11,854 nucleotides of DNA from Candidatus Zhuqueibacterota bacterium (GTDB taxonomy: Bacteria > SM23-31), in assembly GCA_022562855.1 (NCBI GenBank), contig JADFON010000029.1, positions 1 to 11,854 of the forward strand, read 5' to 3'. This document shows, in pieces, positions 2,938-11,534 of this stretch; position 1 is the stretch's first letter; every line of letters starts with the position of its first letter. Below the pieces are notes generated by a model. It did not search any database, had not been told where the DNA came from, and was given only the letters and a program-made list of their open reading frames with translations. The position numbers and the translations under genes were made by a program.

Positions 2938-3252
2938 CTAAGCCTTTATGTCAATATGATTAGGCGATACGGTACCGGCATTATCTTTCATGTTTTCGCT
3001 TACTTCTTCGCCGGTTTCTTCTTTTTTCCGCTTCTTTCTTTTGCGGTTTTTTTCTCTTTCCTTTTCAAGTTGAATCTTAGCTTGTTCAGTCTGATCAGTT
3101 TCCTGTGTTTCGTTTAATTTAGCATCAACATCCTGTTTCTGAATCGTCGCTGCCTGCCGTTGTTCATTATCGGCTTGTGCGTGTCTTGTCTGGTATGCTC
3201 GTTCAACTGCCGGGGCTTGCGTATGAACTATTTGGATTTCAACACTGCGCAT
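2938..3252 (-). CDS. Small charged coiled-coil-like protein following fliA
   Basis: This 104-residue protein has no membrane segment or enzyme motif. A short beta-like start (MRSVEIQIVH) leads into a Gln/Glu/Ala-rich helical region (about 15-68), then a very basic run (69-77, NRKRKKRKK) and an acidic-to-neutral tail. From memory, small proteins of the same plan (short start, Gln-rich helix, Lys/Arg-rich end) occur at the corresponding place near fliA in flagellar loci of Clostridia and other groups; I know of no assigned function. The basic run could bind RNA, DNA or acidic protein surfaces. It does not resemble the anti-sigma factor FlgM. The start is supported by GGGGGTG five bases upstream. 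A sigma-28-like promoter lies in the 128-base gap before it. Confidence 0.8.
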   Translation of the reverse strand: MRSVEIQIVHTQAPAVERAYQTRHAQADNEQRQAATIQKQDVDAKLNETQETDQTEQAKIQLEKEREKNRKRKKRKKEETGEEVSENMKDNAGTVSPNHIDIKA

Positions 3253-4421: not shown

Positions 4422-5321
4422 TTAATTGAAAAGCGATAATTCCGATACTCTTTGAAAAAAAGAGCTGTGATGCTCCTCACATTTTATATCACCCCGCGTT
4501 ACGATTCGTTCCATTAAGTTGTCAATACAGCGCGAAGCGGGACTATTTGGATAAGATAACACCATCGGCTTCTGCTGCATTGTTGCCCTTATGATGTTTT
4601 TGTCACTAACAATATAGTTTAAAAAATTAATTTTTATTTTTAAGAACCTTTGTACTACCAAATTGAACTTTGAAAAAATGTCCTTTGCATGTTCCAATGA
4701 ATTTACCTGGTTTACCACAATATTTATGCCAACTTTTTTTTCCTGCAACGTCAATATTTTTAGCAATGCATATGAGTCGGCAATTGACGTCGGCTCCGGA
4801 GTAATGATAAGTAAGACTTTCGATGCATAAATTAGGAAGTCAAGAACCTGCTTATCGATTCCGGCGGGTGTATCCAAAATTATATAATCGTAATTATATT
4901 CCAGCGAAGAAAGCTGCCTGATTATATTGTTCTTCTTGTCTTCCGGCAGGTTGGTGAGTTCGGCAAATCCCGATCCTCCCGGCAAAACATGTAAACCCTC
5001 CGGACCGGTATAAATCACCTCGCTTATCTGGTATCCTTTTATTATTGCATCGGCGAGACTTCTCGAAGGCGCATGACCCATAAGAATGTTTGTATTGGCA
5101 AGGTTGATGTCTGCATCCATAAGAAGAACCTTATATCCTGCCTGTTTCATTTTCAGAGCGACATTTACAGCTATATGTGACTTCCCCACACCGCCTTTAC
5201 CGCTGGTAACGGCGAACACTTTTGCCCGCGAATTTTTTCTTAAATCAGGGTCAAAATAGTCATTATGGTCTTTCTTTATTTCTGTTGCTATTTCACGCAA
5301 CCGCGTTGCTTGATCCTGCAT
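4422..5321 (-). CDS. flhG: Flagellar number regulator, MinD/ParA-type ATPase FlhG (YlxH/FleN)
   Basis: FlhG is a membrane-cycling ATPase that limits flagellar number and stimulates the GTPase FlhF. The N-terminus carries DQATRLR (3-9), the DQAxxLR activator motif that contacts FlhF. Then come the deviant Walker A 'SGKGGVGKS' (40-48, with K42 and K47), 'DADINLANTNILMG' (69-82) and the Walker B-like 'ILDTPAGID' (148-156). After the ATPase core, 'VVNQVNSLEHA' (202-212) and 'NIIRATMQQKPMVLSYPNSPAS' (242-263) match the FlhG C-terminal part. The 299 residues are normal length. The ATG shares one base with the flhF stop (TGATG) and has a strong AGGAGG upstream, so the two are translationally coupled, as fits their paired action. 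Confidence 0.96.
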   Translation of the reverse strand: MQDQATRLREIATEIKKDHNDYFDPDLRKNSRAKVFAVTSGKGGVGKSHIAVNVALKMKQAGYKVLLMDADINLANTNILMGHAPSRSLADAIIKGYQISEVIYTGPEGLHVLPGGSGFAELTNLPEDKKNNIIRQLSSLEYNYDYIILDTPAGIDKQVLDFLIYASKVLLIITPEPTSIADSYALLKILTLQEKKVGINIVVNQVNSLEHAKDIFSKFNLVVQRFLKIKINFLNYIVSDKNIIRATMQQKPMVLSYPNSPASRCIDNLMERIVTRGDIKCEEHHSSFFQRVSELSLFN

Positions 5322-6484
5322 CAGTTACTTTTCCTCCTGACTATCATTCGCGCTAATTTTTCCCTTGAAGCACGCTCTATATCTTCCGGGACGTTTTGTC
5401 CTGTCGTGATATACGATACCGGTTTTTTCACCTTTGAGAGCAGGTTCAGTATCATTCCAAGGCTCGTTGTTTCATCAATTTTTGTCAGGAGAAGTCTGTT
5501 ATATTTTAGTTTTGAGAACTTTGCAGCCGCATCGACAAGATCGCCGAATCTCGTTGTAATGCTCAGAACAAGATGTGTCTCGTCCGGCTGAGCATTCAAG
5601 ACAAGCTTTTGCATTTCCGAGAGCCGTTGACTATCCTGCTGGCTCCTGCCGGTTGTGTCAATGTAAATAATGTCCATATCATGATAGTTCTTAACAGCTT
5701 TTTTCATATCTTCAGGGGTATAGACGACAGTAAGGGGTATTTCTGCAATATTCGCAAATGTTCTTAGTTGGTCAATAGCTCCGATTCTGAAGGTGTCGGA
5801 TGAAACCAGCGCTACTTTTTTCTTATTCATCAACTTTTGGTTTGTTGCCAATTTCGCTATAGTCGTCGTCTTACCTACTCCGGTCGGTCCAACAAGCATA
5901 ATCACTTTTGGTCTTCCGGCAATCGTTCGCTGTTCATTGTTCACGGTTATCATCGATCCGATTTTCTTCAATAATACTGATAACACGATTCGCAAATCAC
6001 GGTTTTGTTCCTGGGTTAATTCATTATGTATTTCTTCGACTAACGATCTGGCAAGGTATTCTTCAACCTCGTTATCGAGAAGCTGTTTCATGACAATTTG
6101 AAGATTTTGCGGGAATGCGGGAACGCTTTGATATTTTAGAAAACTACTTACTTGTGCGACACTCTGTTTCAATTCATCCATATCAGCTTGCAAAGTCATC
6201 AGGTTACTACCGGGTGCAGAGGGGCGGTAAAAAGATCTTTCCGGTACAGCAGCCTGAGATACCGTCGATACCGCAGGAGAATGCGTGGTCGTATAAGGCG
6301 TTATCGGTTTTGCCCCTTTATCTATCGCAGCCAGAACTTCTATCTCTTCCTTGCCCGAAAAATCGAGTAAGTTTCCGGACTTTACTTTAGTGGATTTGAG
6401 TATGACTGCATCGGAACCAAGTTCTTTTTTGGTTTTTGCAATCGCTTCTTTTAAAGTTGGCGCTACAAATTTCTTAATCATCAT
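5321..6484 (-). CDS. flhF: Flagellar placement GTPase FlhF (SRP-like)
   Basis: FlhF is an SRP-type GTPase that marks the site of flagellar assembly at the membrane. The 387 residues comprise a basic N-terminal part with 'MMIKKFVAPTLKEAIAKTKK' (1-20), a Thr/Ser/Pro-rich linker (about 60-95), a helical N domain (about 100-185) and the GTPase domain. Within that are G1 'GPTGVGKTTT' (199-208), the SRP-type 'SSDTFRIGAIDQLRTFA' (228-244), G3 'DTTGR' (276-280), G4 'TKID' (334-337) and 'TTGQNVPEDI' (360-369). All nucleotide-binding motifs look intact. The first of two tandem ATG codons is preferred because GGAGGT lies 10 bases before it. The gene starts inside the end of flhA with an 11-base overlap and shares one base with flhG. 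Confidence 0.97.
   Translation of the reverse strand: MMIKKFVAPTLKEAIAKTKKELGSDAVILKSTKVKSGNLLDFSGKEEIEVLAAIDKGAKPITPYTTTHSPAVSTVSQAAVPERSFYRPSAPGSNLMTLQADMDELKQSVAQVSSFLKYQSVPAFPQNLQIVMKQLLDNEVEEYLARSLVEEIHNELTQEQNRDLRIVLSVLLKKIGSMITVNNEQRTIAGRPKVIMLVGPTGVGKTTTIAKLATNQKLMNKKKVALVSSDTFRIGAIDQLRTFANIAEIPLTVVYTPEDMKKAVKNYHDMDIIYIDTTGRSQQDSQRLSEMQKLVLNAQPDETHLVLSITTRFGDLVDAAAKFSKLKYNRLLLTKIDETTSLGMILNLLSKVKKPVSYITTGQNVPEDIERASREKLARMIVRRKSN
5333..5338 (-). promoter_or_regulatory. Ribosome binding site of flhG inside flhF
   Basis: A perfect AGGAGG lies in the last codons of flhF, 11 bases before the flhG ATG at 5321. It is among the strongest sites in the window and decides the flhG start. Confidence 0.8.
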
Positions 6485-8543
6485 AAGTGCTGATACCTCC
6501 CTCCGATTCTACCTTTACGGTTGGGGTTAGTTCGCCGTAGGATAGTGTTATTAGACCCGGCAGCACCGATTCTATCAATGAATGAAAGTGCATTCTGATA
6601 CCGGGTGAGGTTATTATAATTGGTGAATATCCTTTTGAAACCATTTCTTCAATTTTTGCGGATAATTGTTTGAGTATTTTATCCATAACATCCGGTGGCA
6701 GGCTCATAGCCCCGCCAACCTTTGCCGCTTCTTTTACCAGGTCATCGATCGTCTGTTCATCGCGGGGGTCGAGAGTCAAAGCATGTATCTTGTCATCGTC
6801 GGATTTGAACATCTGCGTGATAGTATGGCTTAAAGACCGACGGACATATTCCGTCAATATCGTAACATCCCTTGTTGTGGGTATATAATCTGCCAGGGTT
6901 TCAAGAATAGTTATCATGTCACGTATGGGAATTCTTTCTTTGAGCAGGTTCTGGAGCACTTTTTGTACCGCCCCCACACTGATTTGAGGTATAACTTCTT
7001 CTACAACAGTCGCATTTTCTTTCTTTATATTATCGAGTAGTGACTTAGTATCCTGCCTGCTGACAATATTTGCTGCGTTATTCTTTATTATTTCCATGAG
7101 ATGAGTTGCAATAACCGCAGACGCTTCAACTACCGTATAGCCGGCTAATTCCGCTTCTTCTTTCTTCTCCTCTTCGATCCAGTATGCTTTCAATCCAAAG
7201 GCAGGTTCGGTTGTCTCTGTCCCTTCAAGATCCGATGTAGCCGTACCGGGGTTCATAGCAAGATGCATTCCAGGATATACTTCATATCTCGATATCTCGA
7301 CACCCCGTATCTTAAATACATATTCATTTGTGTCCAACTGAACATTATCCCGTATCCGTATCGGCGGTACAACAAAACCCATTTCGGATGCTATTTGCTT
7401 ACGCATCGTCTTAACACGTCCGAGCAGATCGCCCCCTTGTTCCACATCCACAAGAGGTATTAAACCGTACCCGATCTCCAATTCAAGAGGATCGACCTGC
7501 AAATAACCCTCAATTTTTTCTTCCGGCTCCGGTGGAGCCACCTCTTCATCGGCAATTTTTTCAGCACTAACCTTCTGTGATTGCATACTAAGGTATCCCA
7601 TACCCGCGGAAATTAAACAAAGAATAAAAAACGGAATAAACGGCAATCCCGGCGCCGCTCCAAAAACGAAAAGTGCACCGGAAACTATAAAGAGCGCTTT
7701 GGGTTGCGCAAGCAACTGTTTCTGTAAATCAGTTCCGAGATTTGATTCTGACGCCGCACGCGTCACAAGGATACCCGCGGCTGTTGAAACGATGAGCGCA
7801 GGAATTTGAGATACAAGACCGTCACCGATCGTCAATATGGAATAAGTCTGGATTGATTCGGTAAAAGACATATCCATTTGAATTATACCGATAAAAAATC
7901 CAGCCAATAAATTTATTCCGGTTATGATGAGAGATGCTATGGCGTCACCTTTTACAAACTTGGCGGCACCGTCCATTGCTCCGTGGAATTCTGCCTCACG
8001 CGATATTTCCTGTCTCCGGATCCGGGCTTCTTCGTCCGTAATCCCTCCCGCATTTAAATCAGCATCTATCGCCATCTGCTTTCCAGGCATCGCATCAAGC
8101 GTAAAACGAGCCGCAACTTCGGCTATACGTCCGGCGCCTTTGACAATAACAAGGAAATTTATGAGAACAAGAATAATGAATATTATAAATCCGACAACAT
8201 AATTCCCCTGGGTAACATATGTTCCAAAGGATTCAATTACCTCACCTGCGTATGCCTCCCCGAGGATCAGACGCGTGGAAGCAACATTCAGCGAGAGACG
8301 AAACAATGTTAAAATCAGTAATAAACCTGGAAATACTGCCAGATCCAGTGGCTTAACGATATATAACGCCACAATTAACACCACCAGTGAAAAGGTGATG
8401 TCAAATGTTAATAGAATATCGAGTATCCACGTCGGCAGCGGTATCAACATCAGGATCAAGATACCGATAACCGCGATTGCGAGAAAAACGTCGCTATTCT
8501 TGGTTATTGCTTTAAATAACCTACTTGAGGTTGTTGCTTCCAT
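6474..8543 (-). CDS. flhA: Flagellar export gate protein FlhA
   Basis: FlhA forms the nine-subunit ring of the flagellar export gate. It couples the proton motive force to export and receives chaperone-substrate complexes on its cytoplasmic domain. The 689 residues are normal length. Eight hydrophobic segments fall within about 20-320. Between segments 4 and 5 lies the FHIPEP-family cytoplasmic loop, with 'GRIAEVAARFTLDAMPGKQM' (138-157), 'EFHGAMDGAAKFVKGDAIA' (185-203) and an Asp in KGDAIA (D200) that corresponds by motif to the export-critical Asp208 of Salmonella. A linker (about 322-345) leads to the cytoplasmic domain (about 346-680). The ATG follows the flhB stop by five bases. There is no clear ribosome site, so coupling to flhB translation is likely. 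Confidence 0.98.
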   Translation of the reverse strand: MEATTSSRLFKAITKNSDVFLAIAVIGILILMLIPLPTWILDILLTFDITFSLVVLIVALYIVKPLDLAVFPGLLLILTLFRLSLNVASTRLILGEAYAGEVIESFGTYVTQGNYVVGFIIFIILVLINFLVIVKGAGRIAEVAARFTLDAMPGKQMAIDADLNAGGITDEEARIRRQEISREAEFHGAMDGAAKFVKGDAIASLIITGINLLAGFFIGIIQMDMSFTESIQTYSILTIGDGLVSQIPALIVSTAAGILVTRAASESNLGTDLQKQLLAQPKALFIVSGALFVFGAAPGLPFIPFFILCLISAGMGYLSMQSQKVSAEKIADEEVAPPEPEEKIEGYLQVDPLELEIGYGLIPLVDVEQGGDLLGRVKTMRKQIASEMGFVVPPIRIRDNVQLDTNEYVFKIRGVEISRYEVYPGMHLAMNPGTATSDLEGTETTEPAFGLKAYWIEEEKKEEAELAGYTVVEASAVIATHLMEIIKNNAANIVSRQDTKSLLDNIKKENATVVEEVIPQISVGAVQKVLQNLLKERIPIRDMITILETLADYIPTTRDVTILTEYVRRSLSHTITQMFKSDDDKIHALTLDPRDEQTIDDLVKEAAKVGGAMSLPPDVMDKILKQLSAKIEEMVSKGYSPIIITSPGIRMHFHSLIESVLPGLITLSYGELTPTVKVESEGGISTYDD
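6495..6500 (-). promoter_or_regulatory. Ribosome binding site of flhF inside flhA
   Basis: GGAGGT, encoding two glycines near the FlhA C-terminus, stands 10 bases before the flhF ATG at 6484 and favours the first of two adjacent ATG codons. Confidence 0.8.
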
Positions 8544-8548
8544 TGATT

Positions 8549-9631
8549 TTAAGCCGTTTTATTGTTTTTAAGACGGTATACATAAGCAAGAATTTCCGCT
8601 ACTGCCTTGAACAGTTGGTCGGGTATAAAATCGCCGACATCGACGGCTTTAAAAAGCGCCCAGGCTAACGGTTTGTCTTCTACTATAGGTACATCATTTT
8701 CAAGTGCAATTTTTCTTATCTTAATTGCCACTTTCTTCCTGCCTTTTGCGATTACTTTCGGGGATTCCATATCCCCCGGCGTATACTTTAATGCGATAGC
8801 CACCTCTACCGGGTTTGTAATAACAACATCCGCTTCAGGCACTTCGTCCATCATCCGGCGCCGGGACATCTCCCGCTGAATACTTCTTATGCGCGCCTTT
8901 ATGTTTGGATCACCTTCCATTTGCTTTACTTCTTCTTTGATTTCCTGTTTTGTCATTCGAATACTTTTTTCATAATCGAATTTTTGAAATATAAAATCTA
9001 AAATAGCAATAATAATAAGCGCCGCCGTAATTTTCAGACCCAATACAAATGCAGCCGAGCCGACAAAACCTAAAACCTGCATAGCCGACTGGTCCATCAA
9101 GGGCACATAATCTTCAATCTCACTTTTGATAGAATAATAAGCGATTAATCCTATCAATACAATCTTGAAAATGTTCTTAATGAGTTCAACAAATGCCTTT
9201 TTTGAAAATAGAACTCTTTTAATTCCCGATAGAGGATTGATTTTCGAGAATTTCGGTTTTATCGGTTCAAATGTAAAAAGAGGACCGACTTGCAGTAAAT
9301 TGATTGCCAGACCTACCACCATGATCGTCCCGGCAAACGGCAGAAGAATAGTCAGGAAACCGGTAGCGGCAATACTTAGATAGTCCTGCAAGTTATTCGC
9401 GTTTATATTTATTACATTAATATTTTCAAAGATCAACCTGCTGTAAAGGGACAATTTGTCTATCATGGATCCACCGGCAAAGTAAAAAAACAACACTGAG
9501 ACCAACAAAATAGCCGAAGAATTTACTTCAGTACTCTTTGCAACTTGACCCTTTTTTCGGGCATCCTCTCTCCTTTTTGGAGTTGCCGGTTCGGTGCGGT
9601 CTTGTGCTTGATTTTCACCCTTTTCCGCCAT
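8549..9631 (-). CDS. flhB: Flagellar export switch protein FlhB with NPVE in place of NPTH
   Basis: FlhB sits in the export gate and switches substrate class from rod-hook to filament; the switch depends on self-cleavage between Asn and Pro of a conserved NPTH loop. The 360 residues show the basic N-terminus (TEPATPKRREDARKKGQVAKS, about 13-33), four membrane segments (about 40-52, 88-112, 150-167, 186-214), a basic cytoplasmic linker (about 218-262) and the C-terminal domain. The motif here is VVITNPVEVAIALKY (269-283): N273 and P274 are kept, but Thr-His is replaced by Val-Glu. The rest (VIAKG at 293-297, DVPIVEDKPLAWALF, FKAVAEILAYVYRL) is ordinary, so the protein looks functional. The ATG lies 17 bases after the fliR stop, with a weak AGGAT upstream. 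Confidence 0.97.
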   Translation of the reverse strand: MAEKGENQAQDRTEPATPKRREDARKKGQVAKSTEVNSSAILLVSVLFFYFAGGSMIDKLSLYSRLIFENINVININANNLQDYLSIAATGFLTILLPFAGTIMVVGLAINLLQVGPLFTFEPIKPKFSKINPLSGIKRVLFSKKAFVELIKNIFKIVLIGLIAYYSIKSEIEDYVPLMDQSAMQVLGFVGSAAFVLGLKITAALIIIAILDFIFQKFDYEKSIRMTKQEIKEEVKQMEGDPNIKARIRSIQREMSRRRMMDEVPEADVVITNPVEVAIALKYTPGDMESPKVIAKGRKKVAIKIRKIALENDVPIVEDKPLAWALFKAVDVGDFIPDQLFKAVAEILAYVYRLKNNKTA

Positions 9632-9648
9632 CGCAAACTATCCTACCG

Positions 9649-10428
9649 TTAACCCATCACTTGTATGATTTTCAGAATCGACACCTCAAACTCATCCATC
9701 AATTTTCCAAATACATAAGTAAATAATGGCAAAGACAATCCCAGCATTAACATTCCTACAGATATTTTGAGCGGAAAACCGACGATAAAGATATTCATTT
9801 GCGGAACTGTTCTTGCAATAATTCCCATGACGAAACTTGTCAAAAAAAGAGCAACCAATATCGGACCACCGATTTGCAGCGCTATTTTAAAAATTGTTGT
9901 ACTCATTGCTATTATCTGGTCTGTTACTAAACTTGTAAAATTTGCCGTCCCTAACGGAATCACAATAAAACTGCTTCGTAAAGCGTTAAGCAAAAAATGA
10001 TGCCCGTTAATTATCAAAAACAAGAGCAACGAAATGACGTATTTGAATTGAGCCATTATCGATACCTGATCACCCGACAGAGGATCAATAATATTGACTA
10101 TCCCGAAACCCATATCAAGCCCGATGAGTTCGCCCGCCATTTGTATCCCGACAAACATGAAATTCGTTGCCAATCCGATTATGAGTCCGACTATCACTTC
10201 CTTAAGCACCATCACAAAAAACGGCAAAAAATCTATGGGAATCAGGAAATCTCCTGCCTCGATCAGTGGAAACAATACCCAACTGACAAAAAAAGCCAGA
10301 CCCGCTTTTACCGGAATCGGAATTGACGAATAGCCAAAAATCGGCACCGTTGAAAGGATCGTTGCTATTCTGACAAATCCAATGAAAAAGACTATAAACT
10401 GGTGATACGTTATGTTTTGAAATTCCAT
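9649..10428 (-). CDS. fliR: Flagellar export gate protein FliR
   Basis: FliR is the single-copy subunit that, with five FliP and four FliQ, builds the export channel core. The 259 residues are mostly hydrophobic, with about six or seven segments. Family marks include 'FIGFVRIATILSTVPIFG' (15-32), 'KEVIVGLIIGLATNFMFVGI' near 96-115, 'AGELIGLDMGFGIVNIIDP' after it, and 'ISLLLFLIINGHH' near 151-163. Length is normal. It starts one base after the fliQ stop (TGATATG) with no separate ribosome site, so its translation probably depends on fliQ. Confidence 0.97.
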   Translation of the reverse strand: MEFQNITYHQFIVFFIGFVRIATILSTVPIFGYSSIPIPVKAGLAFFVSWVLFPLIEAGDFLIPIDFLPFFVMVLKEVIVGLIIGLATNFMFVGIQMAGELIGLDMGFGIVNIIDPLSGDQVSIMAQFKYVISLLLFLIINGHHFLLNALRSSFIVIPLGTANFTSLVTDQIIAMSTTIFKIALQIGGPILVALFLTSFVMGIIARTVPQMNIFIVGFPLKISVGMLMLGLSLPLFTYVFGKLMDEFEVSILKIIQVMG

Positions 10429-10429
10429 A

Positions 10430-10699
10430 TCAATGAGCGATCAGTTGAATCGATCTGAACAATTCCTCCGTAAACAATTGCATTACCTGCAGAATCCAGG
10501 GGGCAAAAACGACTAATGAAACTATCACGATTACGATTTTCGGTATAAATGTAAGCGTCATTTCGTTAATGGATGTCACTGCTTGAAAAATACCAATCGC
10601 AAGACCGACAATCAGCGCCAGTCCAAGCATAGGTGAAGACACCAGCAAAACCGTAAATACGGCAGTTTGAGCAATGTTTATTACAAATTCTTCAGTCAT
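10430..10699 (-). CDS. fliQ: Flagellar export gate protein FliQ
   Basis: FliQ packs around the FliP-FliR core as four copies of a helical hairpin. The 89 residues are exactly the family's size, with two membrane segments (about 14-37 and 53-76) and the conserved turn 'IFQAVTSINEMTLTFIPK' (37-54). The ATG has AGAAGG about 10 bases upstream. A 67-base gap separates it from fliP; I see no promoter or terminator in that gap. Confidence 0.96.
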   Translation of the reverse strand: MTEEFVINIAQTAVFTVLLVSSPMLGLALIVGLAIGIFQAVTSINEMTLTFIPKIVIVIVSLVVFAPWILQVMQLFTEELFRSIQLIAH

Positions 10700-10766: not shown

Positions 10767-11534
10767 TTATCCGAAACTGGTAACAATAGACGTGACAATT
10801 AAGTACCAGCCGTCCACCAGGACAAACAAAAGAACTTTAAAGGGTAATGAAATCATTATCGGAGGCAGCATCAACATACCCATAGACATGAGGATGGATG
10901 CAACAATCATATCAATCATAAGAAACGTGACATATATCACGAATCCGATTTGAAAGGCAATCCGTAGTTCTGATACAACAAACGCCGGCACAAGAGCCTG
11001 CAACGGTATATCCTCCGGTGTTGCCGGTTTTTCCTCACTGGCAAATCTCATAAATAGCATCAAATCCTTGTCGCGCGTTGTCTCAAGCATAAACCGCTTG
11101 ATGGGTTTAATCGCCTCTGCAAATGCTACGGTATCGGATATCTCTTCGGCAAGATACGGTTGTAATGCTGTGTCATTTATTTGCTTCCATACCGGACCCA
11201 TAATAAAAAAAGTAAGAAAGAGCGCCAGACCGATCAATATCTGGTTTGATGGCATTTGTTGAGTACCCAATGCCTGCCTGATAAAATGAAATATAATTAC
11301 AATTCTAGTAAACGCTGTGGTAAGTATGAGAATCGCCGGCGCAAGAGACAGGATTGTCAGTAATGCTAATATTTGGAGCGAAATAGCCACATCCCCCGTA
11401 TCCCTCGCTTCATCGAAGCTGAACGATATATTTGGCAGTGTCAACAGTTTGTCTTGGGCAAATAATGTATTATTACCAAGGATAAATACGAGAAACACGA
11501 ATAAAACTATTGTAAATATATTTTTTTTCATCAT
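10767..11534 (-). CDS. fliP: Flagellar export gate protein FliP, with signal peptide
   Basis: FliP is the main pore-forming subunit of the export channel (five copies). The 255 residues begin with a signal peptide: MMKK, a hydrophobic core (about 6-19), and a likely cut after NTLFA (residue 26), as is usual in flagellar FliP. The family signature follows: 'AFTRIVIIFHFIRQALGTQQ' (74-93) with 'PSNQILIGLALFLTFFI' (95-111), a periplasmic loop (about 115-180), 'PAFVVSELRIAFQIGF' (183-198) and 'MLMLPPIMISLPFKVLLFVL' (220-239). The start overlaps the fliO stop by four bases (ATGA), with no separate ribosome site. Confidence 0.98.
   Translation of the reverse strand: MMKKNIFTIVLFVFLVFILGNNTLFAQDKLLTLPNISFSFDEARDTGDVAISLQILALLTILSLAPAILILTTAFTRIVIIFHFIRQALGTQQMPSNQILIGLALFLTFFIMGPVWKQINDTALQPYLAEEISDTVAFAEAIKPIKRFMLETTRDKDLMLFMRFASEEKPATPEDIPLQALVPAFVVSELRIAFQIGFVIYVTFLMIDMIVASILMSMGMLMLPPIMISLPFKVLLFVLVDGWYLIVTSIVTSFG

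Follow-up and report, generated by a model that had tools for sequence, protein, structure and literature searches.

The window, by which we mean the whole 11,854-nucleotide stretch of DNA analysed here, carries a flagellar export-gate operon in the gene order fliP, fliQ, fliR, flhB, flhA and flhF, with flhB lying between fliR and flhA. The flhB reading frame is translated without a stop to 360 amino acids. Its product exceeds the curated cut-off of the FlhB model TIGR00328 (410.1 bits, 7.5e-123; cut-off 349.25) and stays under that of the injectisome SctU model TIGR01404 (324.7 bits; cut-off 358), and its closest solved structures are FlhB proteins (E 1e-71). The source genome holds a single full-length FlhB copy. 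Another of its contigs encodes fliF, fliI, fliK and flgE by Pfam match, together with fliG, fliH, fliJ, motA, motB, fliL and fliM, which were recognised by reading the translations by eye. The family score and the stop-free frame thus bear out the earlier description of an otherwise ordinary FlhB in an intact export-gate operon, for which decay is unlikely.

Features of the flhB locus, with positions in the window
Feature	Position	Strand	Basis
flhB, flagellar export switch protein, 360 aa	8549..9631	-	TIGR00328, 410 bits over 10-357
Cleavage motif N273-P274-V275-E276 (NPVE in place of NPTH)	8804..8815	-	Translation; alignment with solved FlhB
N273-P274 flanking the scissile bond, codons AAC CCG	8810..8815	-	N in 160/161 and P in 161/161 FlhB
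P274-A360, predicted post-cleavage C-terminal fragment FlhB-CC	8552..8812	-	Alignment with cleaved chains; model
fliR	9649..10428	-	TIGR01400
fliQ	10430..10699	-	TIGR01402
fliP	10767..11534	-	TIGR01103
flhA	6474..8543	-	TIGR01398
flhF	5321..6484	-	TIGR03499

The self-cleavage motif of this FlhB reads NPVE. The plus strand of the motif is CTCTACCGGGTT, and its reverse complement, AAC CCG GTA GAG, forms FlhB codons 273–276, so that the original prediction of N273-P274-V275-E276 is correct to the base. NPVE aligns opposite the NPTH of the FlhB in structure 36hu and the NPEH of those in 8z5s and 6s3l. The curated model, the operon context and the Asn-Pro pair all place the protein in the FlhB family; the full NPTH sequence is the one familiar mark that it lacks.

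NPVE marks a small clade within the phylum. Six genomes, one per genus, were sampled, and FlhB could be read across the motif in five. The nearest genus of the same family, whose FlhB is 71% identical, also has NPVE, encoded by different codons (AAC CCG GTT GAA), and NPTE occurs in a third genus of the family and in a sister family, with NPTL in another family. None of the five readable proteins has His at the fourth position, and the prospect that close relatives would all carry NPTH is not borne out. In a maximum-likelihood tree the five FlhB form one group (97/92), within which the NPVE-bearing genera are sisters with moderate support (91/54). The simplest history suggested by these sequences is that His was already gone by the time the phylum began to diverge, after which Thr was replaced by Val in two genera. 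Because NPVE recurs in another genus with different codons and the rest of the phylum is without His, NPVE is a clade-fixed natural variant and not a sequencing slip. The idea that NPVE reflects a sequencing error or a decaying pseudogene draws on the state of the source genome, a draft of 491 contigs that is ~80% complete and has a frameshifted flgD, and is scarcely credible beside this recurrence, the absence of His from every readable phylum member and the intact reading frame and family score of flhB.

NPTH has been called strictly or highly conserved in the literature, and cleavage mechanisms have been drawn with its Thr and His. Our survey covered FlhB from ~130 phylogenetically spread families, mostly from genomes at least 90% complete, and yielded 161 aligned proteins; for one part of the sample the higher-scoring FlhB were used, and a few of the proteins included may be injectisome SctU. 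All 161 of these proteins have the Pro and 160 have the Asn, both of which are kept here, and Thr and His are found in 123 and 122, respectively. The third position is otherwise V (16), I (9), D (5) or one of a few others, and the fourth is E (17), R (8), F (4), T (4), S (2), Q (2), L (1) or N (1). The corresponding entropy is 0.05 bits at Asn and 0 bits at Pro, and it rises to 1.36 bits at position 3 and 1.37 bits at position 4. The complete NPTH is present in 96/161 proteins only, so the near-universality assumed at the outset does not extend to a spread sample and may describe the well-studied groups; with 65/161 FlhB lacking it, the full sequence does not define the family. After over-sampled phyla were thinned, 30 of 152 proteins were without His, 33 without Thr and 8 without both.

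These departures are scattered over the tree and occur at fine taxonomic scale. On a FastTree tree built with the motif columns excluded, a minimum of ~20 changes between His and non-His and 23 between Thr and non-Thr are needed, and 11 independent His/non-His pairs fall on well-supported branches. NPVE and NPIE arose separately in another phylum (that of genome G118). Two genomes with the same genus code differ in motif (NPTR in G142, NPTH in G377), and a single family (f27) contains NPTT, NPTS and NPTF. Such variety within a genus and within a family points to relaxed constraint at positions 3 and 4, and the survey as a whole indicates that drift is confined to the last two residues of the motif and spares the Asn-Pro pair. 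His and Thr are still the commonest residues by far, and the two positions are therefore not neutral everywhere. Judged from the alignment, what is conserved is NP, followed by two residues that vary, in place of a strictly conserved NPTH. The variability of position 4 was not found stated in the literature that we searched.

The sole departure at Asn in the survey is an FlhB-like protein (L149, genome G316) that reads DPTH. An Asn-to-Asp change blocks cleavage in EscU and Spa40. The DPTH protein may be non-cleaving, or may not be a true FlhB.

Cleavage proceeds by Asn cyclisation, and the literature found concurs that the reaction cannot do without Asn, with Pro also important (PMC2615192, PMC3040844, PMC3189125). 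The PDB entries of EscU T264A (3bzv) and H265A (3bzx) each contain a separate 83-residue chain B whose first residue is the motif Pro, just as in native cleaved EscU (3bzl), and EscU N262A and N262D are present as one chain spanning the site. Likewise, HrcU T266A and H267A still form the fragment, and their authors state that the mutations "only slightly affect HrcU cleavage"; uncleaved protein increased, function and complementation were restored in part, and N264A abolished cleavage (PMC3040844). A natural departure is known from Shewanella putrefaciens, whose FlhB reads NPEH and cleaves (PMC7771051), and both FlhB in 8z5s and 6s3l also read NPEH. That His shapes the active turn in a manner on which cleavage depends is therefore not supported, as the EscU and HrcU mutants still cleave. 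On the evidence of the mutants and of NPEH, Val plus Glu here is not expected to halt the reaction, and the increase of uncleaved HrcU in the Thr-to-Ala and His-to-Ala mutants means that the double change could be slower. In the literature we found no experiment on an FlhB that has Glu as the fourth motif residue or that departs from NPTH at positions 3 and 4 together, and searching for the natural FlhB variants NPTE, NPEH, NPDH and NPTR by name returned no paper, the Shewanella NPEH having been met otherwise.

The fold around the motif is predicted to be that of a cleavable C-domain. Only the C-domain of the AlphaFold model is confident (pLDDT mostly 74–88 per ten-residue block from ~261 to 350); the membrane part, built from six sequences, was poor (mean pLDDT 65) and was left unused. 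Residues 273–276 are modelled as a loop between strands 269–272 and 277–282, the first two strands of the domain, and the best Foldseek matches to the C-domain model are FlhB-C, EscU-C and YscU-C. When P274-A360 is aligned with the separate chains left by cleavage in Salmonella and Aquifex FlhB (3b0z_B, 3b1s_B) and in EscU (3bzl_C), the match begins at its very first residue. According to the model, the C-domain fold is intact, which speaks to fold and not to catalysis.

Very probably, then, this FlhB is cut at N273/P274 by the ordinary cyclisation of Asn, with drift in a turn that has no catalytic part, and it may be cut somewhat more slowly. The side chain of Asn273 would attack its own backbone carbonyl within the strained beta-turn, and the N-P bond would break. 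Motif positions 3 and 4 would be non-catalytic, tuning the geometry of the turn or the efficiency of the reaction, and would lie in an exposed loop once the chain is cleaved. The phylum would have lost His early, leaving the present Glu or Leu, and Thr would later have given way to its near-isostere Val in two genera. We infer that this FlhB is cleaved and that, if cleavage is slowed at all, the effect is too slight to disturb normal switching. Of the two possibilities raised in the original prediction, cleavage without the His is thus the better reading, given that the single-mutant homologues cleave and that N-P is kept in His-less FlhB.

The other possibility, that substrate switching works differently in this lineage, is not supported. 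It could take the form of a cleavage that is much slower, or altered in its pH response, without the His and is exploited by the lineage as a changed timing of the hook-to-filament switch. The partly uncleaved, partly complementing HrcU mutants would fit this (PMC3040844), as would the unusually long FliK of the phylum (open frames of 1175–1235 aa in 4/6 genomes), since hook control may differ. However, position 4 varies inside a genus and inside families, with no associated change in the presence of FliK, whose C-domain (PF02120) is found in 6/6 phylum genomes and in 77/80 surveyed genomes, unlinked to His loss. Nor did the residues of the FliK C-domain covary with motif position 4 after correction (73 columns; best p 0.002). 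We regard altered timing as unlikely. A bolder version, in which His-less FlhB form a functional class whose switch is timed differently, for example through a cleavage that is slower, or independent of pH, and is matched to FliK rulers of great length, seems a shade less likely still; if true, motif positions 3 and 4 would tune switching lineage by lineage.

It is also conceivable that cleavage of FlhB is no longer needed and that its role is taken by FlhX, a small paralogue of the FlhB C-domain, or by some other mechanism. FlhX-like short frames occur in many surveyed genomes, and G004 of the same phylum has a partial one where a contig ends, but FlhX was not found in the source genome, G001 or G003, all three of them incomplete, and it is no more frequent in genomes without the His (14/30 vs 31/49, p 0.17). 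FlhX as compensation for His loss was rejected for this lack of association. Moreover, a dispensable cleavage should let Asn and Pro drift too, and they do not; their retention in His-less FlhB argues that the cut is still wanted. A 2026 paper proposes that cleavage matters since FliK must physically remove the C-terminal fragment, and in the part of that paper considered here the model requires the cut and does not invoke the His (PMC13344023). We thus hold dispensable cleavage to be very improbable.

Compensation for NPVE was also sought within FlhB itself. In His-less proteins, residue 277 tends to be aliphatic rather than aromatic, and residue 299 (window 8735–8737; two after the AKG motif) is Asp in 39/122 His-bearing and 0/39 His-less proteins. 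By independent pairs, neither pattern can be distinguished from shared descent, and covariation inside FlhB was set aside; in this alignment the Asp pattern at 299 may reflect a contact or shared descent. No compensating partner for NPVE was found among these candidates, and no relative was found in the viral contigs scanned.

Comparison with characterised proteins shows how far the window FlhB departs from known systems. It shares with Salmonella FlhB (269-NPTH-272) its length, a membrane part plus a cleavable C-domain, the operon context, the N-P pair and the C-domain fold, and differs in having V275 and E276 for Thr and His and, in the substrate pocket, Ser290 for Ala. The FlhB of Shewanella putrefaciens (6z0w) is likewise a natural departure from NPTH, but at position 3 only, with His retained. 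EscU T264A and H265A each lack one of the two residues missing here; unlike the window FlhB, they are laboratory single mutants of an injectisome protein, with Ala rather than Val or Glu. That Asn-Pro alone is held in a wide natural sample fits Asn cyclisation and argues against a needed His, and NPVE, NPTE, NPTR, NPTF and NPTT are natural variants for measuring the roles of the two variable residues. The finding is real but modest.

Several further features of the locus and the source genome were observed. Residue 290 (window 8762–8764), the counterpart of Salmonella A286 in the early-substrate docking pocket, is Ser here and Ala in 154/161 FlhB. A charged 104-aa open reading frame without a Pfam match lies at 2938–3252 on the minus strand, flanked by fliA on one side and an HDOD gene on the other. 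The source-genome FliK is 1232 aa long with PF02120 at 1097–1176 (L177:5810-9508), and the long FliK frames of the phylum exceed most of those in the survey. The flgD of the source genome is split into two overlapping reading frames, with PF03963 and PF13860, by a frameshift (L177:9542-10239) that is probably an assembly indel; in G001, flgD is a single 232-aa gene.
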